DNA from: Clytia hemisphaerica
Lineage: Eukaryota; Cnidaria; Hydrozoa; Leptothecata; Clytiidae
Assembly: GCA_902728285.1 (NCBI GenBank)
Contig: CACVBU010000538.1
Location: 313,599-377,598 of the forward strand
Direction of reading: 5' to 3'
DNA: 64,000 nt
Shown here piece after piece: positions 7,001-62,867 of this stretch. The position numbers and the translations under genes were made by a program. A model generated the notes under the pieces. It had not been told where the DNA came from and did no database searches. It saw only the letters and a program-made list of their open reading frames with translations. Numbering within the stretch: position 1 is the first letter of the stretch; the number at the start of each line of letters is the position of its first letter.

Positions 7001-10000
7001 TTTAAGATTATTTAAAACAAGCCTGAGAGCTCCTCCAACCCCCCAAACCCCCACCCGCCACGAGAAGCTCAAAGTATACTTCTCTTTATAGCATTGTAGC
7101 ACTGTTTCTATGACATCAAACAATTAAGCTATAGTTCATTACTGTAAAATAAAAGAGAAACATAGTGTTATTGAACTTTTTGTTAATTTCATTACAGTCA
7201 GTTATGATACATTTTTTCTGTTGGATGTAGACAATATCCATACACTCATTTTGTTTTATAAGCATAACGTTTATAAGCATACTGAAGCTCAAATTTCCAG
7301 TAAAATTAAGCATATGCTAAGCATACCTTGAGGCTCAGCCAAAGAAATTTTTAGAATCATAATTTCCAAAACTTTAGAAAATAACAGAAGAAAGAATCAT
7401 ATATCATATATCATATGGTAAACATTCGAAAACAATAGAATGTCTTCATTTCTCTCAAGATTAAAGAGAGGGGAAAATGCGCGAAAAACTTCCCCCCCCC
7501 CCTTCATATTTTTTTTACCAAGCATAGGGTTAAGCATAGTCGAGGCTCAAAATTGAGCTTTACTTAAGCATAGTGAGCTTCAGCCGAAATTTACCGTATG
7601 CTTATAAAACAAAATGAGTGTATCTGACCAAAGTGTTATGCTAGAAATAAATAAGAAAATTGCCAAAACGTCAGAACCAAATAAAGATATCTACTTTGCA
7701 CTTGAAGCAAAATCACAAAATCTTGAAAAACACAATTTGCATCCAGTCTGCATAAATAAATTTTGTAGTTTAGTACCGTCAAGTTACACAACATGCACAC
7801 AACCATCTTGAAGACTTTGCTGGTCGCAAATGATAATGGAAAGCAAAACTTAAAATTCATAACTTTGCGGGGAAGCTTATTTTCCCCCGTTTTGCTTTAA
7901 ACTCGCTTTTAATTGGTCTATGAGAATTTGGGCGATCGCTTTACTGCCTTGGCGGAATAAACACACAAGCATAATAAATAAATTCAACAGGGCAGCGGAG
8001 TAGCAATTAATTTCAACTGGCAACTGGGAGTCCTCTCTTCTGTGCCAAGCACTGCCAGTGTTTTTTAAACTTTGAAACAATGTTAAATGAAGACCAGATG
8101 GATCTGTTGTTGTGTAACTTGGCGATATAATTCATTAAATTCTAGAAACCATTTTTCATAACTTTCTGCAGTCCGCTTTCTGCAAGTCTGATAAGAGATA
8201 TGTAAACTGTTATCGCCATTCATTCCATTTCCATTATTCGGTCAAAAGTGCGCCAAGGTTAGGAAGGAAAGGTTAGAAAAACACAATCTGCGTCCGGAAC
8301 TGTGTGAAAAATAGTTTGATCAATTTCAACAAGAACTGCATATATTGATATTAATATAATTGATCAAATTCCAAGACCATTTGTCATAATTTTGCAAGTC
8401 CAATAATAGGGATGTGATGTCATCATTTGGTTCCCGTCATCTGACCGACCCTGATTTACGGTCAGCAGGTAGAGTTGGAGTCGGAAAGCTTTTCGCTGCT
8501 TTGCTGGATTTCCACTGCTCCACCTCTGCACGCTCTGTGTTTACAAGTTTTCAATCGAAAGTAGCAAGCACATGCTAATGGAGAGCAAACCGGAAAACCA
8601 GTTTATCCCGGTTTCTCAATTTCTTACTTTGGATCAGTCACCACAACGGATCCCTTTTCAACAAGATGTAGCTGCTTCTTAAAAGAAAAAATATTTTCAA
8701 CCGATGAACGAACGACCCCCACTTTTAAAGTAGAACGACGGGAACCCAAACAATTTTTTGAGATTCGCCTTATGTCCAAAAAAGCACAATTGCATCCAGT
8801 ATTTCTCAAATTTAGACAGTAGCTGTACTTTTGTAACTTTATCAAATTCCAATAACATTATAACACCACCAATCCCACCTAGAGGCAAACAAGAAAAATA
8901 GTTTTTATTGCCAANNNNNNNNNNNNNNNNNNNNNNNNNNNNNNNNNNNNNNNNNNNNNNNNNNNNNNNNNNNNNNNNNNNNNNNNNNNNNNNNNNNNNN
9001 NNNNNNNNNNNNNNNNNNNNNNNNNNNNNNNNNNNNNNNNNNNNNNNNNNNNNNNNNNNNNNNNNNNNNNNNNNNNNNNNNNNNNNNNNNNNNNNNNNNN
9101 NNNNNNNNNNNNNNNNNNNNNNNNNNNNNNNNNNNNNNNNNNNNNNNNNNNNNNNNNNNNNNNNNNNNNNNNNNNNNNNNNNNNNNNNNNNNNNNNNNNN
9201 NNNNNNNNNNNNNNNNNNNNNNNNNNNNNNNNNNNNNNNNNNNNNNNNNNNNNNNNNNNNNNNNNNNNNNNNNNNNNNNNNNNNNNNNNNNNNNNNNNNN
9301 NNNNNNNNNNNNNNNNNNNNNNNNNNNNNNNNNNNNNNNNNNNNNNNNNNNNNNNNNNNNNNNNNNNNNNNNNNNNNNNNNNNNNNNNNNNNNNNNNNNN
9401 NNNNNNNNNNNNNNNNNNNNNNNNNNNNNNNNNNNNNNNNNNNNNNNNNNNNNNNNNNNNNNNNNNNNNNNNNNNNNNNNNNNNNNNNNNNNNNNNNNNN
9501 NNNNNNNNNATATCACATAAGTTAAGCTTGTATTATGAAGATTTCCCAGACTGGCAACAATCTTAAGCTTGACATCCATATGAAAATGAAGATTTCTATC
9601 TACTCCACCTAAAATTTATATTTTCGGAAACTTTGAACCTGGCTGATTTCAAATCATTGCATGAAACTAAGAGAGATATTGTCAATTTTTTTTGGAAATA
9701 CAGTCTATTCAGAATTTTGTCAATTTTCAATGTTCAAAGCCAAATTTTGGTCTAAAAATAATGGAACCAAAAATTTGAAGAAAGAAAGCCATATGTGAAA
9801 ATATTTTTTGAAGTTATGCTGAACTTTGCCTTGATCAGGTAACAATATTACTTTCATGTAACATCATGTTGCCTTTTTTCCAACTTGATTTTGTAGGTAC
9901 AAATTCTTTTTTCCTTTATTAAAAATGAAAGAAATTAAAACTGATTAAAAATAAAAATGCCATTTTTTTAGCGGCTGGTCATTTAGGAGCAGAGGGAGGG

Positions 10001-13000
10001 GGTTCATACTAAATCTCAGTCGTCATGTTGTTTAGTCTGGGGAGGCACTCAAGGTAAGTGACCTACCGTTGTGCAACCAGTGCGTTTTCAGGCCTCCAAG
10101 TGCACTGTAAGGGTCGAAATGAGTAAAGATGAGAGATGCGCTTTATAAAGGGTTAATAAATAGCCTTGGCAAAGTTTTTTGGGCAAAATTTCAGATATGA
10201 TCTAACATTTTTTGCCTAAAAAAAATGGACAAAAATTTTCCAGAAAATGCACTGTAGTAAGGGTCGTTTTTTGCCTAGATTTACTCAAATTTGGCTAAAT
10301 TTTCTGTGCTGTAAGGGTCCGATTTACGGCCAAATCTTGGGTTGCACACAGTTCACTTTTTGATGTCTATTTAAAGATGTACAAAAAATCAAGATTATAT
10401 CCTATGTTCTCAGAAAATGTACATATTTTTTCAGGTGTCGCAATTGTCTCATGTCCCACAACAAGTTATGTTGCTCAAAGACGACTTCAAAGCATACAGC
10501 AAAATCAAGATAGATAACCATTTTTATAACAAGTAAGTTCGAATTTGTAAGTTTTTATATTCATACGAATACCTGCCCTTTTAATTATTGTAGACTTTCT
10601 GAAACTTAAAGGTTTTATTTTTAAATAAGAGTGATATCGTTTGCTTACTCTTCAATTTTAATTTACAAGCTTTTTGATATTGAATTGACACGGATTTTGA
10701 GCAAGATTGGTCAGAAAGAGGAAAAGAAAAACATTTTTTTGCTCATATCAGAATAATAGGCAGACTCTGACCTGGTATGAAACATGTGCCTGATATGAAA
10801 CGGGAATGCTTATGTAAAAATAAAACCTTTGAATCAAATCGCAATTTAGGAATTTGCTATAATAGCCTGTACCAGAACATTTTCAAATTTGTGACAGAAT
10901 AGCTTGGCACTGTTTTAGATCAGCGTGTGGTGCTTTTTATCCAACCTTCTAGCGAATGGTCCGTGGTTTGACTCGCGTTCTTTTCTTTTGTGTTGAAATA
11001 AAAGCTCAATCGATTTAGTCGTCACAAGACCTGAATTTCCAGATCTTAAGTCATAATTGCTTTCTTGGCGTTATTATTGTTAATGATTATGAATTTTTCT
11101 TATTCTAATTTCTTTCAAATAATTGATGTGGTTATAACTAGCTCATTAAAAAAGTGATATAGTCATTTTAAACTTATGATTCATTGAGAATGATCAAGCC
11201 TAGTTTTATGGAAACTCAGTCACAGATTCATTTTGTTAATCTAAAACTATTTTCTTCATGAATGTGTCACAAGGCTGGCCGTTCAGAGTATGCCTTCTCT
11301 TGTTTCTGACTCAATGTTTTGATAATTGAGGTTCATACTTTTGACGAAAAATGTAAAAGTATTTCCCTAACCTTTCTGCTTTCCCTTGGTCGCTTTTTTA
11401 CTAACGGAACACGTTTTTGTGTTTTCATAACGTTAACACTATCTTTTATCTCGACTGAAATGTTTGCTTTCTAAATTCTTAGAAATGAGGTTGTTTTTTG
11501 AAAAAATATGTTTGTCAGAAAGGGATTTTCCAGTTGTACAGTTTTGTTTTTTTCCACGAGGAAAATGATAAAAAAACCTATCGAAATTGTGACAGGATTA
11601 GAAATTGAATTTGAAAGATATGAAAAATGAGTGAAAAGTAACGAATATCAATAATGAATTGGATATGACATATTATTTCCCACCAATAGAATCGGCCCAA
11701 AATTTGAATAGCAAGTCAATGAGATTTGCTTATTTCGAGAAGAAGTATTTAAATTATTTATCAACATTAAGGCAAATTCTCTATATACATTTTATTTTAA
11801 GGTTCAATATCGATTTCTGTTATGATAAAGGTTTAAAGCATTTGAAGAAAAACATCAGAATTGAAAACCCCAAAACGCTTAAGTCGACGAAACGAACTTC
11901 ACATCAATATTATTGTGATAAAGATTAAGAATCATTATTAGCAAAAGCCTTGTACAATCTTTTATAAGAAAAAATCGATTCTTTGTGATTTGGCTGTCAA
12001 AATTAAGGTACTCTCATCCAAATCTTACTACTTGACCCAAAAATGCTTGAATTTCAGCAATTGCAGTATCAGCATTCTTCTTAAAAAATTATTTTTTAGT
12101 CTTAGTTATTCTTTTGAAGATTTTGAGCCTCACTCTTTCTTAAAAATATGAAATTGTTCTGATAAAAAAATGTTAATTATTTTAATAAGTTTTCACAAGT
12201 AAAAATTCCAGACAGGTTATAAAAATTGACCTGTCAAATAATGTCTATTACAATGTCGTGTATGAAAACATAATCCTATTATTCGAAATAACATGTCTGT
12301 CATCTTATACGCCTTGCATCTGAACTCTCCCTTGTATTACTGTCTGAAAACAAGAACTATCATAAAATATTTTTTAAACATCCCTTTTCTTAGCTCCAAG
12401 CAACTCTTTTCAAGTTTTTCCGTTTTTCGTGAAAGAAAATTGTTTCTTTGGTCCATCACCGCCATCACCAAAGAAGCTAGGACAAATAAGATAATCTCAG
12501 TCTCAGCTTTCAGAATTTACCAAGAAAATGCTTTTTTTAGCCCCTTTGAGGCTAATAAGTACATTTTCTGATCATTTAATTTTTTAGATTGCGGGGCTTA
12601 GCCAAAGCTTTGCTCCTATTGTCTTTTAGGACTTGCGATGGACTGTAATTTTTTGCCATGAATTAGCGTGGAGCAAAATATTGTATTGTCCATTATCGGA
12701 AATCTCTACTCTTACCCCACATTCGTAAACCTTTTTGAAATCTCAAAGAAGAATATACTCTTATAAAACAATTAGAGTATTAATGATTAAAATTATACTT
12801 GTTTCAATTTCCCTCTACTGTTTTTAATGTGTTTTCTTTGTAGAGAACACATGCCTGGTCACTTCAAATTCAAAGAATATATGCCGTTAGTTTTCCGGAA
12901 CCTAAGGGAACGATTTGCAATCGATGAAAAGTTATATGCAGTAAGTACAACATAATATACTCCTCATGACATCGTGATTTTAGGGCTGCTCGGTTTTCTG

Positions 13001-16000
13001 CTATAGAAAATCCCAATCCTGATTTAAATATTCTTTGGAAAGGAGGTTTTTTTTTTGTTTTCAAGCACCTTTCTTACTTGCTTTCCCAAACTGAATAAAA
13101 GCCTCTTCACTTTTAAAAACTATTTTCTTGTTTAGTTAATATTGATGTTTATGAAATTTCAATATTTTCTTCCTTTTTAATAGGCTTCATTTTTAATCCA
13201 ACCGCAACTCAGTAAAGCACAAGGGAATAGCGGTGCAAAATTTCTACTGACCACCGACAAGAGATTCTATATCAAAACATTGCAGAGCGTTGAAGTGGAA
13301 ATGATGCATCATATAATGCCTAGTTACCACAGAGTAAGTTTGTTTGTTTGCAAAGATTTTGTTTGAAAATCCTCCTTCGTCGTCACAGCAGCATTTGCTT
13401 TTCCTTTCGTCAAGTGTCCCATCGTATCTCTACTAAGCCTAGATTACACTTTGATTTGCTAAAGCTTACTTCACACTAACTGTGCAGCAAATATAGTTTT
13501 AAAAACCCTCCGAGTACCTTCTTTTGGGCCCCACCCCATTCAGACCATCTGTATCTTGTATTATTGAATTGATCGTTTTTAATCTCTGGGAGCTAACAAA
13601 CAACTCCCATTGGTTAAGTTGATTTTTGTAAAACAAGGCGGCATTTTTATTTTAATCTCCACAACAATTAGTGTTCGAAAGTATTTCCACCTACCTAGAC
13701 TATTCCAGACCCTCTTCTATTATGTACGCTAAATATAAACCTTCCACCGTTCACAAACCAATGGTGAGTTTATGTATGAGTGTTTTTCTGGATTTGTTAG
13801 ATCCTGACTGACTGAGGACGACGGTAAATAGGCACTTTTACAAATCGTTTCAGTCGCTCCGCCGTCCTCAAAATTGCAAATACATCAACTCGCTAATAAC
13901 TGGGGAGGGGGCGATAGGAATAAGAATGGCTGGACAAGATGTTGGGTGAAGTGTTTATTAGACTAAAGTGTCTCCAGATATAATTGGCAGTGGAAACAAG
14001 AATGCCTGTAACTTTTGATAGTTTTTATTAAAAATAGCGCTTTTGATTCTCTAAAACAAGCAAAAGAATTTCCGCAATTATGTTTGACTATCAAAAGTAT
14101 TCTTGTTTCCACCGCCAATTATCTGGATAGACTTTAGAGACCGTTCTTCAAGGCGTTTTAATTATTGTTTTTCATTTTTAGTATATCGTCGAATCACACT
14201 CGGACACACTGTTACCACAATACCTTGGTATGTATCGGACGACGTTGGACAACAAAGAATATTACTACCTCGTTGTACGAAGTGTTTTCAGCTGCAAGAA
14301 GAAAGTACAAAAGAAATACGATTTGAAGGTACGAAGATACAGCTGAGTCACTGTTTTTCCTTATTATAGAGAAATTTTTGTTCTTTGCCCTTCTTTATTT
14401 AAAGATATTAAGATTAGCCCGCTGATGGGAGAAGAATCTCTCGAAACGTATCCGAACGTAAAATCTCTTTCGTGGGGCAAACCACGGTGGACTTTCAATC
14501 TGATTTTTTAATTACTTATCTTTTCTTCATCACAGGGCTCGCGAATCGATCGAGAAGCCAAAGACTCTGAGAAGGTTTGTAGTTAGAATATAGCTTGCTT
14601 CTTGAACTCGCCTTAATATTTTTGTGTTGGCTGGTTTGGGCTACTTGAAACATTGGGTTCACTCGGAAAACTTTTTTGCAAACCTTTTTTAACTTGGCTG
14701 AATTCTGCCTCGCAACACTTTCGTACGGTCTTGAGTTCATTTCACAGGTTTTCAATGCTTATACGGACCAATTTTCACCCTCCGGAGTAAAGGCAAGCTT
14801 AAACAGAAAAAGTAATTTAATCAACTTGAATTAGATTATTTTCTGAAGCTGTCTGAGGTAACAATATATTTTTCAGGATAAGGAAAGTGTCACTTTCAAA
14901 GATAATGACTTCACCAAAGAAAATGCCAGGATATTCATTGGTGCTGAACAAAAAGAAAAATTCAAAGATAGGCTAACTAAAGACGTCAACGTAAGTGTAT
15001 TTACTATGAAAGTGTATGGGCCGAGGCTGTGAGGTGTACATAATGTAAAATGACATTTGCATAGCATTACGACCAGACTCGCTGCTATTCAATCAGCCAT
15101 CCTCAGTTGATAACCCAGTAATGTAGGACTTTTAGACGATTGAGAGTATTTGTTTTCATGGGGTCCATGACCATGAACATGAACATGAACATGAACATGA
15201 ACATGCGAAGAAGTGGGGTTCAGGGATTAAGGGGGTTGTGGCATTGAGACGTCTAGATCATTCCATCACCGCTCCTAAAAAACGAATTTTATTTTGCTTC
15301 AGTTTCTGTCTGGTCTGAACATAATGGATTACAGTTTATTGGTTGGTATTCACGACACCGAACACGTCGACTCTTCCGAACCGGAAGACGAACAAGACGG
15401 TGAAGGACCTGACGGTGGCACTACCGGTGACGAATCTGGCGACGGCCTCGAAGAGCCGGCATCTCCTACTACTGACGGAGAAACATCTGCCGCTACCCCT
15501 GAGACGCTTGCAGCACGTCGCCAACGTTACTCGCGAACGGAAAGTGTATCCAGTAGCGATGGTTACGAATCGGAATACTTTGCGCTCCCGTCCTCTGACG
15601 GTTTGTATTTTCTTCAACCTAAGAAGTGTATAGGCTCAGAAAACATCACTCACTCTTTATGGTATCCTTTACTACAGTACCTGAAAATGTTAATTTCAAA
15701 TTTTTTCTTTTAAAGAATCACTTCATTCCGTATATTACATGGGTATCATCGACGTCTTAACGTATTACGGCGCCACCAAAAAAGCGGCACACGCGGCAAA
15801 GACAGTGAAACACGGGGTATGTTTTTTTACGTGCTGTTATTTTAATTAGTGATTTTTTTTTTGGTTTGAGGGATTTTATGCACTTGAAAATCTCTGTAAA
15901 ACCTTTATGTTTGTATTGCAGACGTTGGGCTTACATTATTAAAGCTATAATTTTTAGTTTGTTAAAATTTGATTGTTTGATGCTTGGTTGTGGAAGCTCA

Positions 16001-18342
16001 AGTTGATTTCTTCGAAGCTGATCAAACTCGTTTTTTAGATGTCCGAAAAGGAAAATTTCTAACAAAAATAATGACAAATTCGCCTAGGGTGAGTCATTAG
16101 GATTAGAAGTTAAGGATCGGCTTATTTCAAAGTAAAAGTCGTTACCTTTCCAACTGTTTCGCTTTACTGTTGGAAACCGCTAACGTTTTGTATAGATTTG
16201 AAAATCGATATTTGAGGTTTTAAAGTAACAAGATGTTTGAATAATTCATTATGCGAGATGAGAGAATTTCAAAAGATTCTTTTCATGCATTCTTGTTGTG
16301 GGTGTTACTAAGGAAAATATTATGCAAGGTTCACTTTCAAAACGTATTCAATTTCAAAAGAGGGTGGTAACGAATTATTTTCTCAAAGAATTTTCGTTAG
16401 GTCATCATTAAAGTAAAATGGTAAAATAATTGTGAAAGTGGGCTGGTTTCTATTTGTTAATTTTATTCGTTTATCTGTTGGGTAAATGAACATTCAACTT
16501 GTTGTACATCAATTTTCGATATTGCATAGTTTCTAGAGGGGTCAAGACCCCCCCCCTTATGTAAGAGGACCCCCCTTAAGTGCTAACCCCCCCCCCCTTA
16601 GGAAATCCATTTAAAATTAGAAACATGTAAATGATTTTTAAAGTTACGTTTAAATTTTTAGTATGAAATAATTTTCCTGTTAAATCGAGAAATATAAAAG
16701 AGTTGATACTAATATTAGACGAATATGCTAAATTTTATACACTTTAAAATAAAATATAATCGACGTAATTTTGTTCAATCATTCCAGCTTAATTATAAAC
16801 GCTCGGGCTAAACCAATCTTATTTAAATTTTCTCACGAATAAATGAATTAAATATTTTTTTAATCTCACTAATCATTTTGATTAATAGGTGTTAAACATA
16901 AAACGGCGTTCGACAAGCGAACCCAATATGCCCAACATGAAACTCAGCATGGAGTTTAATAAGGTAATGTAATAATGTAACACTCTTAATTGATCCTTAA
17001 ATAATGCTTTAAAAATTAACTATAATGTAAAATTTTAAATTGTAATTTGTTAAAATGGATAGCTGAGAATTTCTAACCACGGTACCAAAAATTCCAAATT
17101 TCAAATTTAAGTCTTTTTGGGAAACTGGAAATTGTTTTCAGCTGAATGGGCTTTGATTTTTGGATTTACATATAAGTTATATATGATTAAGACAAATCTC
17201 AAAATCAAAGATCGGGGAACAAAAATTAGCTCTTTCGTCTTTTCTTCTCAGCGAAGTCTAGAAATTTACCGAAATTCAATAGATTGAAATAGATAGTCTA
17301 AGATAACTTTTTTTATAGAGTTATTTTTTGTCTAGAACAAAAGTCTTGTCTGCTAATTATAACCTGATAACAGATTGTGTATTTTCTGGCCCAGTACGCT
17401 GAAGCTCTAAAGACGTGGGCGAAAATATACAATCTGAAGAATATGGTCGCGCGCCTGTACGCGGACCGCGTAGAATTTTATTTAAGAGGAACAGGTCCGA
17501 GTGCAATGTCGACAGGGAAGGGTGTCATGGCCGACAACTTTTGGGTTGGGAGATATGTTAAGTTCTCTCAAAGCAAATTCAGAACTTTTTTGGAAAAGAA
17601 GCATGCTAAACATTATTGTATTTCACAGACAAGGTTCTTTAATGGATGAATATATGCTCAAAAAAGAATCTTTTTTGCTTTAAACTAATCACAAAAGAGA
17701 AAACAAAGCATAATAACATCATACACAAATATCACTTAAAAAGAAAGGAAAATCATAAACAAACATCTTTATATTATCAGTAGAAGAAAACTGAAGCTAT
17801 AGAAAATGAATACAAACCATTACTGAATACTTTTATGAAGTTTATAAAGTATAAAGACCAAAAAACTTGAGTTTCAAAACAATAACAAACATCCATTTTC
17901 ACCTTCCGCCTCCAATTTGAAACCTTTCCACTCGCAAAGCATTGTGGGACAGAATTTTAATTCCTATCTATAAAACGCACTTTTCATGGAGCGCCATTTT
18001 AATTTTTAAGTTTTCGGCACTAAACAAAAAGTTGACTCAAAATTTCTGTAGAGATAGGGCCATTTTCCTCAGATGTTAGTTTTCAGCGATCTTTAGAGCT
18101 TTAGCGTGTCGCGTAGAAAACTCCACAGCTGCTATCAGGTTAGCTAATTATAGACGTTTTGTCACTATGGTTATTGTAAAAGAAGTTAAAACGATCGACT
18201 TATCGAGTTTTCCGCTAGCAACGCTAAATGATTGACCGTACTTTTATAATGTATTTTACAGGCAGGTGCAGAAATATCCACAGTCAAACCACATCTTTAC
18301 GCCACGAGGTTTTTAGAGTTCATGGATTCGGTCATGGAATGA
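4038..18342 (+). CDS. PIP4K2: Phosphatidylinositol 5-phosphate 4-kinase type-2 (PIP4K2)
   Basis: PIP4K2 phosphorylates PI5P at the 4-position to give PI(4,5)P2. Ten exons join in phase: 4038-4166, 10435-10532, 12844-12940, 13184-13333, 14182-14328, 14536-14574, 14877-14990, 15303-15600, 15716-15816 and 18262-18342, giving 417 residues (the family is about 400-420). Diagnostic stretches in order are [48 protein letters not shown], the [12 protein letters not shown] segment, the catalytic [12 protein letters not shown] (about residues 265-276), [13 protein letters not shown] and the C-terminal [20 protein letters not shown]. The last two are type II hallmarks. Exon 8 carries an acidic, Ser/Thr-rich insert of roughly 80 residues after GIHD, matching the variable insert of the family. 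Intron 1 is 6.3 kb and contains the assembly gap. Two optional in-frame exons are listed separately. Confidence 0.95.
4311..4649. mobile_element. hAT-type MITE, copy 2
   Basis: Same family as 3015-3366, with the CCGGAC/GTCCGG-rich interior and AGGACCC...GGGTCCT ends. The left end has a 3-base insertion after AGGACCC. The flanking 8-mers ATTGGTTC and ATTGGTCC differ at one base, as expected of an older insertion. It lies 144 bp inside PIP4K2 intron 1. Confidence 0.9.
5351..5832. mobile_element. G-run-rich TA-type MITE
   Basis: Short inverted ends GTGTCCTCC...GGAGGACAC are each bordered by TA. The interior has alternating runs of G or C with GGGGGGAAA motifs. It is non-coding and lies in PIP4K2 intron 1. 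Class is inferred from the TA duplication only. Confidence 0.65.
6228..6720. repeat. cluster of CTTAGTATACTAAGA-like palindromes
   Basis: CTTAGTATACTAAGA and degraded forms (CTTAGTATACTGCAAC, CTTAGTATATTAAGAGGTTGCAG, CTTAGTATGCTACAG) recur through about 500 bp of PIP4K2 intron 1. This resembles decayed subterminal repeats of a transposon. No clear ends or target duplication were found. Confidence 0.4.
7243..7620. mobile_element. TA-type MITE (CACTCATTTTG ends)
   Basis: The first 24 bases, starting CACTCATTTTGTTTTATAAG, are repeated inverted at the right end, and TA flanks both sides (7241-7242 and 7621-7622). Inner short repeats (AAGCATA with GAGGCTCA) also pair. No coding capacity. PIP4K2 intron 1. 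Confidence 0.85.
8915..9509. other. assembly gap (N run)
   Basis: 595 unknown bases inside PIP4K2 intron 1. Any open frame drawn across them is meaningless. Confidence 1.
10085..10325 (-). repeat. dispersed repeat with GTGCACTGTAAGGGTCG motif
   Basis: This is the inverse-orientation relative of the cluster at 1085-1380: GCACTGTAAGGGTCG, GCACTGTAGTAAGGGTCG and GTGCTGTAAGGGTCCG recur with AT-rich spacers resembling TTTTTGCC(T/C)AAA. It ends about 110 bp before PIP4K2 exon 2. Confidence 0.5.
13800..13905. repeat. dispersed repeat, copy 1 (second at 43199-43345)
   Basis: A segment running from GATCCTGACTGACTGAGGAC to AACTCGCTAATAACTG recurs with substitutions in the multicopper oxidase intron at 43199-43345. 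It carries inverted GAGGACGACGG/CCGTCCTC motifs. Probably a small MITE; its edges are not certain. Confidence 0.5.
13963..14145. mobile_element. hairpin MITE next to PIP4K2 exon 5
   Basis: Two arms of about 50-55 bp pair: CTAAAGTGTCTCCAGATATA through GGAAACAAGAATGCC on the left and the near-complement ending CTGGATAGACTTTAG on the right. The loop is about 70 bp. The right arm ends only 36 bases before the exon 5 acceptor. No clear target duplication was seen. Confidence 0.7.
15166..15205 (+). repeat. (CATGAA)n microsatellite
   Basis: About six tandem hexamers CATGAA/ATGAAC, roughly 100 bp upstream of PIP4K2 exon 8. Confidence 0.9.
16535..16605. repeat. C-run-rich stretch in PIP4K2 intron
   Basis: Three runs of 6-9 C alternate with CTTAWG motifs, resembling the interior of the G-run MITEs elsewhere in the window. 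No inverted ends were found here. Confidence 0.4.
16889..16963 (+). CDS. PIP4K2: possible cassette exon A of PIP4K2 (25 codons)
   Basis: A 75-base open segment follows an acceptor ending TTGATTAATAG and stops at AAG|GTAATG. It is phase 0 at both ends, so inclusion keeps the frame. It would encode [20 protein letters not shown] plus MEFNK. The RRSTS piece resembles a basophilic kinase site. Insertion would fall between KHG (exon 9) and AGAEIS (last exon), inside the activation loop. Not present in the vertebrate proteins I remember. Transcript evidence is lacking. Confidence 0.5.
17374..17556 (+). CDS. PIP4K2: possible cassette exon B of PIP4K2 (61 codons)
   Basis: The segment lies between an acceptor ending AACCTGATAACAG and a donor GTTAAG, phase 0 at both ends. 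It encodes [20 protein letters not shown], then [17 protein letters not shown] and ending [10 protein letters not shown]. Its GC-rich codons (GCG, CGC, GTC) resemble PIP4K2 exons 8-9 and differ from the AT-rich surroundings, which argues for coding. I do not recognise the sequence as a known domain. It could be an internal cassette (with or without exon A) or part of an alternative 3' end, since the frame stays open to a stop near 17649. Confidence 0.5.
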
Positions 18343-18798
18343 AAATAATTTTCGTCTGTTTGATTTTCAATACTTACAAATCTTGCTCTTTTAAATTACG
18401 TTGATAAAATGTAACGAAAGAACATTGGTGATTTGGTGATACGGAAATCTGACCGAACCCCCAACAACCTGGCTGTGTTGGGTGATCGATTCGAGTTTTG
18501 ACGCCTGGTGACTATGCTGCTGAATCTCGGATTATCAGAGCTCGCTTCAACCGTCTTGCTCACCAAACAGAAAGAAACTGTACGCATTTAAACCAGTACG
18601 AGGGTCACAATTTGTTAAAATTGTATAAATTGTACATCTTGCACACGTTAGAGGATCTCGAGAAAATGGATTTGGACCCGTTTCACAATGCTGTTAAGTT
18701 TATGTTCAATTTGAGATTATTTTACAAGTCTCGATATTTGGTTGTTTAATGATACAAAGAGTTAAGTCTCGTCCAATCTGAATTTTAACTCATATATA

Positions 18799-18804
18799 AT
18801 AAAA
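18799..18804 (+). terminator. PIP4K2 poly(A) signal
   Basis: AATAAA lies 457 bases after the PIP4K2 stop codon, the first canonical signal downstream. The intervening open frame at 18498-18749 is most likely 3' untranslated sequence. Confidence 0.55.
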
Positions 18805-19620
18805 AAACACTAACCCCTGGTAAAATTCTTGACTTAGGCTATACCCGCCATCTTTAGTCAGAGTTATACTTTTGAAATGGGTACCCGTAAAGAAGACATT
18901 GCATTACAACTTTCTCTGATAAAAAACGATGCTACATCACAATTGTCTAACGACAAGTATATCTAGCGCTCTCAACGCATTCACATCACTGTCGAGTAGT
19001 GACATTATTAGGGTACTACTCCGATCAAAGGTTTTGGATTGAGAAACTTCCCAGGGTTTATATAAAGTTCAGTGGAAGAAAAACATGTCTTGAAGTCATG
19101 ATATTGTAAAGATATTTCCCACTATACTTTCATTCCTCCACTTTCGGGATTAAAGATAGCTTAGTACTTTTCCCTCTATGTATCAAGTAATTAAAGAATT
19201 TATTTTGCATTATTTTAAAAAACCCGATTTACCAGAGAATTTGTAATTGTATGTCTTAAAATCTTTTTAATGAGGTTTTTGACAGTATTGTTATTTTTAG
19301 GTTAGCTTTATCTTTCTTATTAGAGCGCGAAATTTCCCTCCTTAAAATTTAATTAGAATTTAGATGATCTATAATCTCAACTAGATGGTATTCTTCAAAT
19401 TCAATTCTTAGCTTAGAAGCCTTTACCCAAGCATTTTCAATTTAATTTTAGCTCATAAAAAAACCGCTAAAGGGCGTGCTAGAAAGTGCTTTTCAATGGT
19501 AACACATGTTGGGCTGCACCTTGAAAACTTTATAATTATGTATATTTTGAAGCAAAGAATAGCATGTTTTTTGTACATTATTTCGATAAATTTTGACCTT
19601 ATTTTATTCATGCGGGCCTA
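18805..19620. other. intergenic, no gene seen
   Basis: AT-rich sequence with no convincing exon, splice pair or repeat end. Confidence 0.6.
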
Positions 19621-19622
19621 TA

Positions 19623-19862
19623 CAGAGAGTGGACAAATCTTTATGTAAAGTAAAATCCTTACCTAAAATCAAACCTTAAACTGGGCTTAGAATAATTGGA
19701 ATAAATTACAATTCTTTTTGTAATAAATAGATATTCAATCCCCAAGATGATTGAATAGGTTCTTGAGATGAAAATATTAAGTAAAAAAGTCATAATATTT
19801 GGCATCAATTTCGAGGATTTTACTTTATGTAAAAAATGTTCCTCTTTTTTCGGGACACACTG
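19623..19862. mobile_element. mariner-like MITE, degraded
   Basis: Bounded by TA (19621-19622, 19863-19864). The right end read inward is CAGTGTGTCCCGAAAAAAGA, the typical mariner MITE terminus. The left end (CAGAGAGTGGACAAATC) is diverged, but the next 18 bases (TTTATGTAAAGTAAAATCCT) match the inverse of the right arm. Confidence 0.7.
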
Positions 19863-20494
19863 TATTGTTTGGATATCTTAAATCTTAAACTTAACTGTCT
19901 GATTTAGTATGAAAAATCTATAAATGTGGCTATACTAGAACTACTACGTATTGAGTTTTGATCAAAGAAATTTAACATTTAGATTTTTTACATTTCAAAG
20001 CCTTGAGATCCGCAAAGATACTTTATTTTTTAGTTATATTTTCCCCTTTTGTTTTTAGTACAGTAATAATTTTTGCTCTTATTGTTTTTTAACAAATTGT
20101 CAAAAAGATTATTTCAACATATTAAAAAAAACTCTACAAAATTTTTATTCGCAATATTTTTTAGCATTTTACTTTAGTTATTGTGTCTGTATATTGGCGT
20201 TTTTCCCAAAAAACGCAAACTTGGCGGAAGTAATTTTACCGTATACGGCTAATTTTTAAGGGGACTCGTCAATTCTCGCCAAAGTTTCCTATCGCTCAAA
20301 TTTCTTCTCTAAAGGCATATTGACTTGCCCCAAATTTGAAACAAGTTGATTTGTAAATATTTAAAAAGATCTCCAAATATTTGGTAAAACTGGAATTTCG
20401 TCTTATTTACAGAGGTGTTTATCTAATACTGTGTGTATATAGTGTGTATAATGTGCATAGTAAATTCCCATGAGTAGACAGCACCTGAAAAGTG

Positions 20495-24139: not shown

Positions 24140-25600
24140 TCATAAATAAAAAACAACCCCTACCCCATCTTATCAGACTTTATATAAAAATGGATTTAAC
24201 TCCAAACATCCGGAAAACTTGGGAACTTTTATTAATGGCATTCTTGCCTAGCCAGGGTATGGATGTCTTTTCGGTAGATTTATTTCTTGTAACTTAAACA
24301 ATTTTGCGACCACCTCCTTCGTTTAGATTTTTCTATGAGTGTGGTCACTAGTTTTGTTAAAGACAAATAAATAAACACTACCACTCTCTCCTGAGACACA
24401 AAACACGGGAAAAGTGTTTATAATAAGAATTCTCATAAAAACAGTACAGCACCTGATCCCGAGAATGTAGGTTTCTCATTTTCAAGCATTGTAGCCTTAA
24501 CGATAGTTCAACTTCATAAAAAGTTGTATCAGGGCATACTGTTACATATTACTTATTATTTCTAGACATGAAATTTTAACTTGAATTAATTTTTTCCAAC
24601 GGAAATCTGAATCGAAGTTGACTGGATACTACCCGAATTGAGACATTTTTTAAATAAATCCGCTCTAAATCGAAATCTATTGGAATTAAGTTATGATGAT
24701 AAGGTATTTTCTTATTCCTAATGAACTAAGGAAATGGGGAAAATAGTCCATTTCAATATTTATTGTTCTAGGTTAGATATTTTGACGAAAATGTTTGACC
24801 TACCTTTTGGGGTTAGTTGACCTACAATTTGGGGCCCTTCATAACCTGACATGAAAAGTCTGTCAATAGTTATATAAAACTTGTTTTTTGTACTTTCATT
24901 AAATGAAAGTACTACCTGAGAGATAATTAATGTTGACATTTTGAGCTTTTACGACGTGTCCCAGACCTACTGGGACCCAAGCCCAATCAGAAGATTTGCC
25001 TAAGTTTGGAACCCTAGAATTTCCATCCCCATTAGGACTTCAGTAGAAATTTTTGTCCCGCTGTGGGAAAAAGTTCCACTGGGGCTGTGAGGTAGGGGTG
25101 TTGCCATTCTTAGGGCATTTTTTTTCGAGACAAAAACGTGAAAATGGGTCTCAATTCAAAATTGAGATAAAAGATTTAAAGGTAAAGATATCAAAATATA
25201 TTCAGAAATTTCTCAATGACAGGATAATTTCCATATGAACCTGATGATACACCGACAAACTTCGAGAAAAAAATAGTCCAAGTTCTTCTTAGTAGGCCTG
25301 ATTGGTGTAATTATCGTGCAAATTTGGAACAAAGCACCAACTTTGAACCTGACATGCCTAACACCCTATGGATTGATTTTAAAAGGACGACCCAGAAAAA
25401 TTTTAAGGGTAGCTCTTATTTTTGGACCCATCTATCGAAAAACTAGCCCAAAGACATCACAGACTGGAGACGTTGTTGCTGATATACTGATTATCCATCA
25501 ACCTGGAAATCGAACGAAATCACCTTGTATGTGATATAAGAACATTTATTTGTCTCGGAGTGAGGAACTGACCTAACACACTCCTGATATTTTGGGTCGA
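24140..25600. other. no recognised gene or element
   Basis: AT-rich sequence with short frames only. The final part may be the 5' region of the LINE that follows. Confidence 0.5.
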
Positions 25601-25620
25601 ACAACTTTCTTCATCAATCA

Positions 25621-28600
25621 ATGGTTAACAAAAATCACCTTCATCAATGGCGAATCGGTACTGTAAACATTCGAACTGGAAAAGATGATATAAAGCTAGA
25701 GAACTGTATTACTGAAATTGCTAAAGCTGACCTTTCTGTATGTGCTTTCCAAGAAGTCCGTCGTCTCAATAGTAACTCGGTGAAAATTGAACCCAAGATA
25801 AACGATAAAAACTATAAATATGAACTGTACTGGTGTGGCTATTCTATGAAAAGACAGCATGGAGTTGGTATTGCAATCAAAATCGAAAATGATATTGAAA
25901 TAGAGGAAGTGCTTCCAGTAAGTCCGAGAATAATTACTGCAAACATTACCATACGTGGCTGCTCCCTTCGAATAATTTGTTGTTACGCTCCGACTGAGGA
26001 CGATTCAACCTCATCCAAAAACCTCTTCTACGCCAACCTAAACAAACAATTCATCTGTGAAAAGACACGAAAAGTAATCTGTCTTGGTGATTTTAATGCT
26101 ACCTCATCAGCCACCTTATATAATTCTTCCCTTCGTGAAAACACCCTGATCGATGACCTTATAGTAAATAACAATGGTCTTCGCTTTCATGAATTTTTCA
26201 ACCGTAATCGACTATCTGTTCTGAACACTTGGTTTACCCACAAAAAGTGCCGTCGAATCACCTGGCATTCGCCAGATGGAGTTACCAAGAAAGTATACGA
26301 TTTTGTATTATGTTGTAGCTGGCTTCGCCAATATGCCAATAACTGTCGTGTGTACAACAGTTTTGACTTTGACTCTGACCATCGGTTACTTATAGCAGAC
26401 ATCTGTACACCAAGCTCAAAAATTGGTCGATACATTTCAAGAAATAGGACACCGAAAAGTATCAAGCTGAACTTGAAGTGTCTACAGGATACGCAAATTT
26501 ATAACGCATTTCTCGAAAATACCGTTACTAAACTGGAACAAATCGATTTACTTCAAAATAATAACTCTATCATCAATGAATCGTTTATTACGTATATAAA
26601 TTCATCTGCAGAAGAATCTATTCCCAAAATTGAGAGATCAAGATTATACCAACCATGGCATAACGATGAGGAATTGAAACGTCTGTACGGATTGAAAGAT
26701 GAATTAACTCTTCGTAACAATAGTAAGGGACTATTTACTATTAGAAAGAGGATACGATTACGATCAAAACATCTCAGAAATCAGTATTATAAATCAGAAG
26801 CTGAAAAGATCAATCAATTTGCCATCAATAGAGAACTCGACAAACTCTTTTCGAGGGCTAAAAACCAAGAGACAACCCTTAGAAGCACAACTGCAAAATG
26901 CCCCCCAGAAATGCTTCTAAAACACTTCCAAAAACATTTCAATCCTAGCCGTGATAATCTCATAATCCCTGAAGAACTCTCGACTAACGTGCCAGATTTT
27001 ATAAATGATCTTCGTAACATTTCCACCAACATCCCTATAGACACTGATACCCGTCCATCGAGGAAATTCAAAAGCACCTTCATCAACTAAAATCAGACAA
27101 AGCTAGCAATGACATTGACCCTGAAATCCTCAAAAAAATGCGAGCACCCGTTATGCTCCAAGTTATCCAAAAATTGGCAGAAAATCTTTGGTCTAATCTG
27201 GATCTACCAAGCGCCTGGGGAAACTCGAGATTGAAAACGCTTTGGAAAGGGAAGGGTTCCAAATCCGACCCAACCAAATATCGGGGAATCAGCATTGGCT
27301 CGACTGTATGTAAATTGATGATAAATATCATACTGGATCGAATCAGACCGTGGTATGAGGCACAAATCACAGATGAACAAAATGGATTTAGAAAAAACAG
27401 AGGTACAACAGACGGAATTTTCACTATCAAAAGAACACAACAAATATCCAATCGAAAAACGCAACCACTCTACTTACTGTTTGTTGATTTAACGGCTGCA
27501 TTTGACCATATACCCAGAGACTGGCTATTTCAATCAATCAGAATTCGCTTTCCTGATAATGCTGACCTAAAACTATTCGATATCTTAGAGAAGTTATACA
27601 GTCAAACATCCTTGACCTTCCATGAAGCGAACACTTCATTCCATGTATCATCAGGCGTTCGTCAAGGAGGACCTGAGAGTCCTCTGTTGTTCAACCTCTA
27701 CATTGACTACGTCATGCGAGTTTTTATTAAAAAATGTAACTTTACTGACGAGGTTAGTTTCTTTAAACATAAGTATCGAATCAATCCAAGATCGATCTCT
27801 AGAGCAGAACGACTTCGAATGCGAAATCAGAACGGGAAGCTATCAGGTGAATCATCACTCCCATGGTGTGGGTACGCAGACGACCTGATACTTTTCTTGA
27901 CTGATCTTTCATCTCTACAATCAGCGTCAACACTTCTAGACAACTTATTCGTTAAATTTGGTCTTCGAATCAACGAAACCAAAACCGAGACGATGATTCT
28001 CAATCACTGCTACCTCGAGACAAACTATCCTGATTAGCATCATTAATATTCGCAATGTCCCGTTGAAAAATTCAGGCCAGTTCAAATATCTTGGTTCGCA
28101 CATCTCTCCAAATGCGCCTAATACCGGAGACATTGAAATCAACTATCGCATTCAGATGGCACTTGGAAAATTCGCAAGTATGACAAACCTCCTTCAGAAT
28201 CATGGAATTCATCTATCTACAAGAGTTAAATTTTTTAACTCCTTTGTGAGAAGTAGACTAACGTACTCTTGTCAGAATTGGAATCTGACCGCAGCGCAAT
28301 TTGATAAGCTTGATTCAACGTACAGAAGTCTACTTCGCAAAATGATACGACGTGGTTTCAGTCGAGTCAATACTGAAGAAGGAGACTTTCGATTAAAAAT
28401 TAATAACGCTAAGCTCCATTCTATATGCCATACTGAAGACGTCAGTAATTTCATTCGAAAACAGCAAAAGAATTATGCAGGACATGTCGTTCGAATGTCT
28501 GTAGATCGTGGTATTAAACAGTTAATGTTTAATTCCGATAAATATCATAGAATCGGAAGAACAACTCCCTCTCTCCTAGAGCAGGTGTTGTCAGATAACA

Positions 28601-28740
28601 ATTTGACTATCGACAGATTTATAAATTTGAATATGAAATAGTGATTTTTACCTAACAATTTTTTATGATTAAAGTTTGACTTAGGTCCCATTTACTAGTT
28701 ATAGTTTATATGGTAAAATAATATATATATATAAAGGTCC
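25621..28740 (+). mobile_element. RTE-like non-LTR retrotransposon, frameshifted
   Basis: The frame from 25621 begins with an apurinic-type endonuclease: GTVNIRTG, FQEVRRL, YAPTEDD, LGDFNA and DSDHRLL. After a linker it passes into a reverse transcriptase: KYRGISIGSTVCKLM, DEQNGFRKNRGTTDGIF, LFVDLTAAFDHIPR, SSGVRQGGPESPLLFNLYID and the catalytic GYADDLILF, then a C-terminal FKYLGSHISP...YAGHVVRM region. Two shifts break it, one near 27055 and one near 28034; a single base change at each would account for them. The endonuclease and the YAGHVVRM tail favour RTE or a relative. A short (TA)n tract at 28722-28734 may be the 3' tail. Inactive copy. Confidence 0.85.
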
Positions 28741-45215: not shown

Positions 45216-45599
45216 ATTTAATGAACCACATGGTGCGTTAAAAAGACAATCAATTAATGTAATTACCAAAGACGATTATGGTATTAAGTTTTAGATAAAA
45301 GAACAGTGTGCTAATCTCCGAGCAGATCCTGGTTACTCTGCGTATGACATGTATTCACTCTAAAAGGTCATGGTTCCGTAAGAGAATTTGTCCGGGTTAG
45401 TAGCCCGCATTGATGATTTTCATCCAGATTAGGGACAAACATTTTACAAATGAGCTTTTGAGCGCGGTGATTGGATAAACATTACGTCATTCGTTAACAT
45501 GAATCCCGTCGTTTTTCGCAAAGCAACTCAGATGATATCATCACATTTTCCACACCTCTTTTGGTGCGCCTAAACTCAAACTAAAAAATATTATGTCTT

Positions 45600-47805
45600 C
45601 GTAACTTCTCGCTCAACAACTTCAACAGAGACCTCCACGATACTTTATCCAACGAAAATATCAAGCTTTTTCGAAAAAGTTCTTGATAAACATGCTCCAA
45701 AGAAAATTAATCGTGTTCGAGGTAATCATAAACCTTACATAACTAAAGAAATACGTAAAGCAATCATGTTACTCAGCTTCTACAAGAACAAACGTAAAGA
45801 AGCAAAAAATCCATACTGGTCAACTCTCTACAAACGCCAGAGAAATCGTGTCGTCTCATTAAATCAATCAAGAAGAAAAAAGTTCTACGCTAAACTTGGT
45901 ACACCTGAACCAATGTGGTCAAACATGAAACCATACAAACTGTCGATTTTAACCACTTTCAATTACCCTGGTTGACAAAATTCGTGAATGCTATGATAAT
46001 CAATGCAACTTTCCCCTCGAGTCTTAAACTGCCTGACGTCTCTCCAGTTTTTAAGAATGATGATAAATTTGACAAAGCTAACTATCGACCTATTAGCCTT
46101 TTACCAGCATTTTCTAAAATTTTTGAACGAATAATCTATAATCAGCTGGAAGGATTTTTTCAAGATAGTTTTTCTGTGTTTTTGTGCGGTTTTCGATCAA
46201 AGCATAGTACACAGCATGCCCTTCTTCGTCCTTTTTCTGAGTGGAAAAAATCTCTTGACAACAAGGGAAAAGTCGGAACCATTTTAATCGATTTATCCAA
46301 AGCTTTTGACACTCTAGACCTACTTATTGCTAAAAACTGTCTCAAAATAATTTGCAGCTGAGACAAAAAATAGCTGTAGCTTTTGATAGAATTTGAATGA
46401 AGTTGCGATTTTGTGCTCGTTGAAAAGATTTTTGTGAGTGGAGTATTATCAAGCAAAAAAAAATTGAAAAATAAAGAAAAATGAAAATAAAAAATGAAGA
46501 AGAAAAAAATCAACTTCTTGTAGAAATGTGGTATAATTACCATTTTCACAGGAGTGATTCTTCAATCTTTGACCATCATCACTGTGAAAATATTTTTCAA
46601 AAATATTCGTTCAATCAAAAGATATCAAACATGGTTTGTCATTGGTTGATTGACAAAAGGCTGTTTTTTTGTCGTTTTTTACTACTTTATAGAGTCAACC
46701 AGCAATAATTTTTGTTTGATATCTTTGATTGAATGAATATTTTTGAATTTTTTTTTCACAGTGATGATATTAAAGGACAAGAATTGAATCTTGTTACAGT
46801 GGCTGGCTAGAAATATCTCTTGGAGTCCCACAAGGTTATATTCTTGGCCCTCTTTTATTCAACATATTTATTAACAACTTTTTATTTTTAATTGCAAGCA
46901 TCTGTAACTTTGCGGATGGTAATACTCTCTTCTCATGTGACCCAAGCATGGATAGCATTCTTTCTAACCTCACATCTGATCTTGCCACCGTCTTAGAATG
47001 GTTTAAAAACAACATGCTTGTGGCAAATCCGAAAAAGTTTCAGATGATGCTACTAGGACATAACGTTGATCAATCTATTGAAATAAAGATTGAAAATTTT
47101 ATTATCAAAAGCTCTGATTCAGTTGAGCTGCTTGGTATTGTGTTTGACTCCAAGTTATCCTTTGAATCTCATATTTCTAGTCTTTGCCATTCAGCAAACT
47201 ACAATGTTATCAGATTCAACAGAATCAGGAAGTTAATCAGCTACAAACTATCTATTTTATTATTTAATGCTTTTATCATTTCAAAATTTATGTATGCCCC
47301 TATTGTTTGTATGTTTTGTAAAAAAAAAACTTTACCTAAAAATTCTCAATTCAATCTCTCCTGAAACAGAGGATGTGCCTTTACGAAATCCCACGACTAT
47401 TTCATGAATCACACCTTCGTCAATCACTTTCTGAAGTCTTCAAATCTCAGAATCTTGGAAATCCTGTCTTCATGTCATGGATGTTCCCGTCCCGGAAGAT
47501 CGAATGTCACCTTCGTTCTAAAAATCATCTTTTAGTTCGTAAAAAAGTCTTGACGGTACGCCATGGCTTTAACTCTTTCCCATTTCGAGCTAGTATCTTG
47601 TGGAATATACTTTCGGATGAGCTTAAGAGTTCCAAAGATATTTCCACGTTTAAATCTAGTTTGCTTAAGCTTAAACTTTTAGATCTATGTACTTGTAATA
47701 TTTGCAAAATTTACTAAACTCCACTTTTTCAAATCTTTTGTTGTTGTTGGTGTAAATCAGATATTTATCTATGGTAAACTAACTTGAAATAAATGAAATA
47801 AATTT
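45600..47805 (+). mobile_element. CR1/jockey-like LINE, inactive and interrupted
   Basis: Fragments in three frames, in order: LDKHAPKKINRVRGN, KRQRNRVVSLNQSRRKKFY, ANYRPISLLPAFSKIFERII, GFRSKHSTQHALLR, GTILIDLSKAFDTL, then after a MITE insertion LGVPQGYILGPLLFNIFINN and a C-terminal ALTVRHG/LWNILSDELK-type tail. The catalytic F-A-D-D box reads FADG, so the second aspartate is lost. It has several shifts and stops. The 3' end carries TGAAATAAATGAAATAAA near 47783, resembling a CR1-type microsatellite tail. The upstream endonuclease is missing or unreadable. Confidence 0.85.
46580..46763. mobile_element. CACTGTG-ended MITE inside the LINE
   Basis: Arms of about 55 bases, beginning CACTGTGAAAATATTTTTCA and pairing with the right end ...TTTTTTTTCACAGTG, enclose a 75-base loop. 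It sits between the KAFDTL and GVPQG segments of the LINE reverse transcriptase, so it inserted after the LINE. CACTGTG recalls Transib termini, but no 5-bp duplication is clear. Confidence 0.75.
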
Positions 47806-59212: not shown

Positions 59213-59341
59213 AATTGTATACTAATTTATCGAATATAGTTTAAAGCAATTTTACTACAAGAAAATAATATGACCGGTGTTCTGTCTGAAGGCTATTTCT
59301 AATCAATCTTTGACTAATTTACGGATATTTTTATCAAGAAA

Positions 59342-60379
59342 ATGAAACTACAGCAGATACACATCATTATTTCTTTGTATACCTTGACCACGAACCTTGA
59401 AATGTGTTATGGAACGACCATCAACAGTAAGGTGTTACGAAACCACACCATCATTGGAAAACATGGTAAAGAAATGAGAGTTACGTACATCAGTATGAAG
59501 AGAATTCAAAATAAACTTTTATTAGTTGTACCCATTGGAGGTGGATACGTTTCTAACAGTGACGAATGTCAAAAAAAATGCGCTCTAACCATCAATTGTA
59601 TTGCTATGAATCTTCAACCCACCGCACCAGTCAGTAACTATTCACTATGTCATTTATTGGATAAAGATCATTACAAAAGACCACACCTTTTGGTAGATGC
59701 TGAAGACTCTGAATATCACGTCGTTTCCGTAAGTTAAAATAACATACGTTGTTTTATAAGAACAAACTACAAAAGAACATAAGGCTTCGATGGCCAAAAT
59801 ATTAAGAACAAGTTAAGAACATTTTAAAGTTTTATGGATTCTTAGAACACCCTATTTCTAAGGAAACGGCATAAAACTGCTCACAAAATCAAGAGCACTG
59901 TAAGAACATTCTTAGTCTCAAAACTCAAAAAGGTTAAGAACAGCCGAAGGTATACACGCTTTTTTTTTAAAGAAACAATAAATCACTCCTGAGGCTCGTT
60001 TGCTTGTTACTTTGAGCATCAAACACTTTTCATCCCGTCCTTTTCGCTTTGATTTGCTTAAAATTCTACTCTTCCATGCAAAGCTTTTTGTTGCTAAATT
60101 GTTCAAGTTTTTTTAGCCTTATTAATGCGCTATTAAATTGTCAAAAGAGCAAAACAGTGTAGATAGTTTAATAATTCAATGACATTTCTAAAATGGCTGA
60201 TTTGAACCAAACACAAGATATTTAGTCATATCATTGACTTTCAGAGCGGATGTTTGAACAAAACAAATCCCATGTCACCAAAATGCCAACCATCAGAAGC
60301 AGGTGTTGAGAAGACAACATATTGCCATCACAACTACTCTGGAGACGAAAATTACGAATGTCGTTGTAGACAAAAATAA
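59342..60379 (+). CDS. secreted PAN/apple-like protein
   Basis: Exon 1 (59342-59728) and exon 2 (60245-60379) join in phase 0 through GTAAGT and a TTGACTTTCAG acceptor, giving 173 residues. A signal peptide (MKLQQIHIIISLYTLTTNLE) precedes a domain with DECQKKCALTINCIAMN and YSLCHLLDKDHY, the cysteine order of PAN/apple modules (C-x3-C-x5-C ... C). Exon 2 adds five cysteines (SGCLNKTN, KCQPSEAG, TTYCHHN, YECRCRQK) and then a stop. PAN modules bind proteins or carbohydrates outside the cell. A copy of the AAGGCTTCG MITE lies in the intron. The LamG-like exons 1 kb downstream may belong to the same gene by alternative splicing, but the reading frame does not connect cleanly. Confidence 0.7.
59747..59950 (+). 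mobile_element. TA-type MITE family (AAGGCTTCGATGGCC), copy 5
   Basis: Begins after TA in ACATACGTTGTTTTATAAG, 18 bases past the donor of PAN-gene exon 1, and contains AACATAAGGCTTCGATGGCC. The right end is truncated. Confidence 0.75.
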
Positions 60380-61356: not shown

Positions 61357-62867
61357 AATTGAAGCCCGTTGTTAACGTACATTATGACCGACTACCATTT
61401 GCAAGGAACCATTGGTTTATCAAATTCAACCTCACTTTGCCATCTAATATAACAGAAGACGGACAATTTTTCCGTTTCAATAGTTATAGTGAAGGCGAAA
61501 ACCTTGGATTCACGTTGTTTTATTTATACTTGTCAAATAAAATATATGCTAATTTTCGGGAACCATCTTGGATAAGAACACCTCTTGTGGTTGATCAACC
61601 ACAACCAAACCAAGTAATGGATATTGAGGCAAAATCATTTTATAATTCTCAAACAAATAGATGGCAGCGAAAGATATATCTTGATGGCGTCCTAAAAGCT
61701 GAAGAAACAACAAGCACTACTGGAGCATTTACCATGAACGATGTTACATTCATTTTAGGGAGCACCCCAGCTACAATCACTGATTTCAAATACTCCTTGA
61801 CTGAACCAAGTGGTAAGCTCTACTTTCTACTTTAAGGGAGCTAATTTTTTAGGTAACTAATTTTTGCGCGAAATAAGTTTCGCGGGAACTAATTTTCCTA
61901 ATTCCTCTCTCTGGGTCTCCTCCTTTCTAGGCGAAATTTGTACCAGGTATGTGCAGGTAGGTAAACCTCAAAAGATTTTACCTTAAAGTGTCGATTTTTG
62001 ATTTTTTTTTGCTTGGACATACCTATCACCTGGCAAACATAGTTCCCTAAGACTCCTCCACAAGTAAGGAGCGTAACTGGTCATGTTTTTATTACAAAAT
62101 GTTTCAAAGTGATAGAAAAATTGTTATGAATAGTGGTGTGATGATAAAGATTGATTTTCAAATTGATCATGGGTAACTTTCTTGCCAAACATAATCTTTT
62201 TTTATTAATGTAGAAAATTATCCAATATCAAGATGTTAATTAATCTCCATCTACATCAATATTTGTGGCAGAACACGTATAATCTTAAAAGGAAAGTAGA
62301 AAAGCAAAATAGGGCCATAAATATACAGCAACGAGAGCAATTTTTCCCGACAATGTGATTTTAGTTTCTGTTCCTGTTGGTCAAACTTAAGCATTAACCA
62401 GAAATACTAAATTATCTTTAGAAATACCGATAGTATACCCTGGAACAAGATCGTTGATAAAATTACCAGCTCTATCTCGCAATTGGATGTTTCATTTTGA
62501 ATTCAAGCTCACCTCAGATACATTATTGTCGCCTGCATCATCAAGCATACTCATTGTAGATGCTAATGAAGGAAGCCTGTTTTATGTAATCGTGAAAGAC
62601 CCATTGACCCTTGATTTTAGTGGTGTTGGATCCTTTCAACCGCAAAAGAATGTGTATCATAAAGTTGTTATCACGCAATTTTTCTCACCGTTTCAGAACA
62701 GGTGTTTGAAGCAATATCGTATTGATGGGAAAAGAATATCTAATACTTTCTTCACAATGACCTACACAAATGTGAGCGCATATACTACTGCGACTACTGG
62801 TATGGGGGCAGCCTCAAATGTAATGATAAAAAACTTTTACTTGTTGGATCTCGACAAAGACGTCTGA
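61357..62867 (+). CDS. two tandem LamG/concanavalin-like exons (3' end of a secreted protein gene)
   Basis: Exon 61357-61812 (acceptor GACATTCCAG, donor GTAAGC) and exon 62422-62867 (acceptor TTATCTTTAG) are both entered in phase 1, and the first also leaves in phase 1, the symmetrical pattern of shuffled extracellular modules. Each encodes about 150 residues with parallel motifs: LPFARNHWFIKFNLTLPSN and RWQRKIYLDGVLK in the first, LPALSRNWMFHFEFKLTSD and LKQYRIDGKRI in the second, then (F/Y)TM, T(T)G and D/NFxYxL strands. This suggests a jelly-roll fold and internal duplication. The second ends LDLDKDV-stop. The preceding exon must end in phase 1; exon 2 of the PAN gene stops before any good phase-1 donor, so the 5' partner is unresolved. 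Confidence 0.6.

Follow-up and report, generated by a model that had tools for sequence, protein, structure and literature searches.

The last intron of the PIP4K2 gene in the 64,000-nucleotide stretch of Clytia hemisphaerica DNA analyzed here (the window) holds two open segments with splice-like borders, and these very probably have different origins, the larger (segment B) in a transposon and the smaller (segment A) remaining an open candidate for an exon. An earlier note on this DNA described two phase-0, splice-bounded segments in the interval from the penultimate to the last PIP4K2 coding exon, one with 25 codons and the other with 61, and both are present as described. Segment B belongs to a repeated transposon, of which it forms the left end, and is not a gene-specific exon. 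That segment A is a real exon is a tentative reading, put somewhat short of an even chance.

The PIP4K2 product considered here consists of nine located exons, from 10435 to 18342, which join to 374 amino acids without an internal stop; N-terminal exons lie outside the 374 residues. The joined exons match Pfam PF01504 (PIP5K) with E=3.5e-74, and the top match in the PDB is human PIP4K2B (1bo1_A, residues 54–415) with E of about 1.5e-106 to 2.6e-106. An AATAAA signal stands at 18798, after the last coding exon. A run of N occupies 8915–9509, upstream of the located exons, and the same window carries a multicopper oxidase match (PF07731, 31343–32425, minus strand, E=2.1e-27) and a PAN_1 match just over the cut-off (59318–59734, plus strand). 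The intron between KDSEK and DKESV contains a further phase-0 open AG..GT segment of 39 nt (14748–14786), the splice scores of which clear relaxed thresholds and which is either a small optional exon or chance.

The junction KTVKHG/AGAEIS, at which any insert would be placed, aligns without gaps to human PIP4K2B and corresponds to G390/A391 in PIP4K2B numbering, counted back from residue 415 in the alignment. The alanine found at position 381 in the type II activation loop is present in Clytia PIP4K2, nine residues upstream of the junction. According to published work, residues 372–391 of the PI5P4K beta activation loop are unmodelled (PMC3749867), the substitution A381E turns the preference of PIP4K beta from PI5P to PI4P (PMC10267561), and Thr376 of the alpha form is phosphorylated by PKD, its aspartate mutant being less active (PMC10753794). 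By counting, this threonine is the Thr of KTVKHG. Since residues 372–391 are unmodelled and the junction lies at G390/A391, an insert would occupy the C-terminal rim of the disordered activation loop.

Table 1. Features of the last PIP4K2 intron and its flanking exons, in window positions.
Feature	Position	Strand	Basis
Penultimate coding exon of PIP4K2, phase 0, ending in ...KTVKHG	15716..15816	+	Exon joining, PDB and Pfam matches
Segment A, 75 nt and 25 codons, phase 0/0, candidate cassette exon with RRSTSEP	16889..16963	+	Splice ranks, controls, single genome match
Other phase-0 open AG..GT segment, 25 codons, straddling the transposon border	17319..17393	+	Splice scores at least those of A; without GC contrast
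Left target-site duplication, GCTAATTA	17352..17359	+	Flank comparison
Non-autonomous TIR DNA transposon copy, 783 bp	17360..18142	+	Copies, terminal inverted repeats, duplication
Left terminal inverted repeat, imperfect	17360..17446	+	Alignment to reverse complement of right end
Segment B, 183 nt, 61 open codons within the transposon, claimed as cassette exon	17374..17556	+	Open frame, repeat family
Right terminal inverted repeat	18060..18142	-	End alignment
Right target-site duplication, GCTAATTA	18143..18150	+	Flank comparison
PIP4K2 last coding exon, AGAEIS...SVME, stop	18262..18342	+	Exon joining, PDB match

Segment A is preceded by ...TTAATAG and followed by GTAATG, and segment B is preceded by ...ATAACAG and followed by GTTAAG. 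Splice sites were ranked with consensus matrices derived from PIP4K2's own sites (nine acceptors, eight donors), and chance was assessed in 300 dinucleotide shuffles of the intron by counting those with a segment at least as long and sites at least as good. A B-like segment occurs in 9.3% of shuffled introns, or 7% using the inner acceptor of B, and segment B is thus not beyond chance. An A-like segment occurs in 3.3%, which places segment A modestly beyond chance by shuffling, and more so with further controls.

The reading in which neither segment is an exon, A being open, and flanked by splice-like borders, by accident and PIP4K2 existing in its canonical form only, is considered slightly more likely than not; it has the transposon origin of segment B in common with the reading preferred here and differs on segment A alone. 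The shuffle frequency of A-like segments is compatible with it, as is the presence in this intron of 17 phase-0 open segments of at least 15 codons with loose AG...GT borders. Two segments of the intron reach the splice thresholds of A, namely A itself and the segment at 17319–17393, which scores equally well or better. Because the latter crosses the border of a young transposon it is probably due to chance, and its passing is a warning about the splice-threshold test. Codon use is neutral for segment A: its score falls between those of coding and open non-coding sets, is matched by 24% of 2379 overlapping control segments, and gives no separation from open non-coding DNA.

Against a chance origin stands the combination of sites, frame and GC island. 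Among the candidate sites of the intron, the acceptor of segment A ranks 3 of 132 and the donor 18 of 122. Segment A has a GC content of 41%, against 18% and 20% in the sequence on either side; this contrast of 0.22 is matched by 0.5% of 48,659 overlapping control windows and by 0.7% of 5664 windows in PIP4K2 introns; the contrast ranges from 0.02 to 0.23 in ten segments comprising eight accepted exons, 14748–14786 and segment B. The control comprises 118.8 kb, that is, the plus strand outside 10401–18400 and the entire minus strand, coding parts included. A single segment in this control is open in phase 0 for 25 codons or more with both splice scores as high as those of A, and it falls in a 158-residue open reading frame (62391–62867) that has no Pfam match. 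With splice thresholds of 4 and 2 or stricter and a GC contrast of at least 0.2, no control segment is found in the 118.8 kb, so that A is unequalled there. Loose thresholds (2 and 1) admit 30 control segments of at least 25 codons, or 0.62 per intron length, and with the GC contrast added two segments remain, or 0.04 per intron. The GC and motif tests on A were picked after A had been seen.

The RRSTS motif that had been noticed in segment A is present, as RRSTSEP. The mode-I 14-3-3 consensus is RSXpSXP, and such motifs predict poorly from sequence, according to PMC8093981. RRSTSEP fits this consensus, and RSTSEP is the sole RSx[ST]xP among the 119,298 residues of the six-frame translation of the window. 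This uniqueness also speaks against a chance origin of A; as the motif was seen first and counted afterwards, it is support rather than proof.

Searches with segment A itself return little. Even with the E limit relaxed to 10, the one match of its peptide in the host genome is its own locus; the PDB yields nothing at E 10; and the A-containing isoform has no match in viral and prokaryote contigs, as expected. Use of segment A as an alternative last exon, its frame running to a stop at 16970–16972, is less likely because neither AATAAA nor ATTAAA occurs within 16964–18797. The region 10000–20000 contains no RNA family at gathering score.

Segment B is best explained by the element in which it lies. 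The transposon copy carries at each end a terminal inverted repeat, imperfect and some 85 bp long, and the two copies of its target-site duplication agree at 8 of 8 bases. Treated as single-stranded DNA, the element gives a better predicted fold than its shuffled versions (z -3.5, 20 shuffles), which is expected from the inverted repeats. The frame of segment B starts within the left repeat, at base 15 of the transposon. The donor of segment B, GTTAAG, ranks 103 of the 122 GTs in the intron and its acceptor 39 of 132; the inner acceptor, ttgtgtattttctggcccag at 17395, ranks 14 of 132. The GC-richness pointed out in the earlier note is confirmed (48%), but it reflects transposon composition.

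Segment B does not correspond to a known domain, since its 91-residue open frame and 54-residue inner form match no Pfam family and comparison with the PDB gives ten weak matches, the best with E=0.47. A fusion of A and B gives only sub-threshold Pfam matches (Ribosomal_S8, E=0.044; SidC, E=0.23). A match of segment B to viral contigs (L070, 14 residues) is taken as chance.

Copies of the element were sought in the host genome of 417 Mb in 951 contigs. The 54-residue B peptide has at least 106 matches at E up to 0.001, and at least 11 peptides, including that of the window, are identical to it, both counts coming from the 150 of 277 candidates that were scored. The loci compared are the first eight and 60 regions drawn from the other 98 match rows, all chosen by protein score. 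Among the 67 loci other than those of the window (L007 and L009), 66 have a DNA match to the element at E 1e-8, the exception being L063. The copies repeatedly start at the equivalent of 17360 and stop at the equivalent of 18142, and many span bases 1–783. Of the full-length copies aligned, L003 comes closest, with 3 mismatches in 783 bases, and by this comparison the insertion of the window copy looks very young.

Duplicated target sites recur in the family. In the fetched copies, 34 of 40 left and right pairings have 7–8 of 8 matching bases and six do not, and the same level of matching is reached by 10 of 1560 mismatched pairings. The 35 duplicated sites, that of the window included, represent 32 distinct empty sites, some copies being duplicates of each other. 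Around the duplication, and outside it, there is a near-palindromic target preference close to GYC-N10-GRC: G-C-C occupies positions -4 to -2 in 25, 21 and 23 of the 32 distinct sites; on the other side, positions +2 to +4 carry G-A/G-C in 21, 30 and 21. At one 10-kb stretch (G000:C939:476500-486499) three copies have identical flanks, and a single insertion plus its flanks is present on two contigs (L047 and L048), pointing to segmental duplication or uncollapsed haplotypes as the source of these shared-flank copies.

The frame of segment B is often open in the family: among 57 copies spanning B, the window copy included, 39 are open without indels, seven have stops and 11 have indels, which recent common ancestry can account for. 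In copies of at least 94% identity, 60 of 113 substitutions in the B frame are at third positions, with 54 synonymous changes versus 34 expected; in the 3' part of the element, used as a control in an arbitrary frame, 66 of 147 are at third positions, with 67 synonymous versus 43 expected. Because this control leans the same way and protein score decided which copies entered the comparison, no claim of selection on the frame of B is made.

A longer autonomous parent was sought in the long copies and rejected. The eight extra stretches that they contain (in L002, L022, L029, L030, L040, L050, L055 and L066) have no mutual match at E 1e-5, and those of L002, L022, L029 and L030 carry their own inverted ends, so that the stretches have the appearance of further elements nested in the copies or of inserts with no relation to them; that of L055 is partly N. 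The inserts that break L002, L022, L029 and L030 are short and differ from one another, which suggests that more than one family of this kind is present in the genome. Elsewhere in the window, the long open frames at 25588–28641 and 45574–47717 have translations that appear, by their motifs, to resemble non-LTR reverse transcriptase and endonuclease.

The most probable account of segment B is that a cut-and-paste, non-autonomous transposon of 783 bp inserted recently into the last PIP4K2 intron, and that phase 0 is by accident free of stops through the left inverted repeat and the adjoining GC-richer sequence, which were read as an exon. The transposon would most likely leave with the spliced intron, without effect on the protein. 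Intronic transposons are known to become exonized (PMC2879366), and a new exon, specific to the lineage or polymorphic, might be present in a part of the transcripts, made of segment B or of the inner form that begins at 17395. This is very unlikely: the open frame and the rank of the inner acceptor allow it, but the donor is poor, the insertion is apparently very young, and a conserved kinase core would gain 61 residues of transposon. The reading given in the earlier note, in which both segments are cassette exons that add up to 86 residues to the specificity loop and alter substrate choice, can be practically dismissed despite fitting frames, AG/GT borders and a location near Ala381, because B is a repeat and because the determining alanine is retained, at a position that precedes the insertion point, so that a substrate change is not indicated. 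What stands of that claim is segment A, a plausible candidate with 25 residues; the 61 of segment B, and with them the total of 86, do not.

The element resembles known non-autonomous DNA transposons with terminal inverted repeats in its fixed ends, its inverted repeats, its 8-bp duplication, its tens of very similar copies and the lack of a long open frame in the 783-bp window copy. A target-site duplication of 8 bp is usual in the hAT and P superfamilies. The Clytia element differs in its ends (TAACCTGATA..TATCAGGTTA), its long imperfect inverted repeats and its GYC-N10-GRC preference.

Clytia PIP4K2 shares with human PIP4K2A, PIP4K2B and PIP4K2C the catalytic core, the alanine at the A381 position and the sequence KTVKHG/AGAEIS, and would differ from them, if segment A is used, in an optional insert of 25 residues. 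In the available text of the open-licence PubMed Central literature on the activation loop, splicing and 14-3-3 binding of PIP4K2/PI5P4K, no insert at G390/A391 and no 14-3-3 control of PIP4K decided by splicing were found. A splice change of PIP4K2A that does appear in this text is the skipping of exon 5 (PMC10837360), and 14-3-3 proteins appear as partners of other phosphoinositide kinases, with 14-3-3 sigma in the PI5P4K interactome (PMC13218151). Binding of 14-3-3 in PI4KIIIbeta and similar kinases is phosphorylation-dependent, as is predicted from the motif for Clytia, whereas in Clytia it is an optional exon bordering the activation loop that would supply the motif.

If segment A is an exon it is probably optional, and its inclusion would add 25 residues at that C-terminal rim. 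These would bring a basic-directed Ser/Thr kinase site (RRSTSEP), which on phosphorylation would then bind 14-3-3. Regulation is the simplest guess for its role, and the insert would presumably be phosphorylated and act by regulation or docking instead of a change in substrate. The complete proposal, an optional exon placing a phosphorylation-gated 14-3-3 docking site at the rim of the PIP4K activation loop, is possible and on balance rather unlikely.

The larger half of the exon claim thus falls, and a segment that is GC-rich, open and splice-bounded turns out to be a piece of a young transposon, a trap for scans that read a window without the whole genome. What is left is a small candidate exon of 75 nt that could add a phosphorylation-dependent docking site beside the specificity loop of a lipid kinase. 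If this is true, splicing would set whether PIP4K can be clamped or relocated by 14-3-3.
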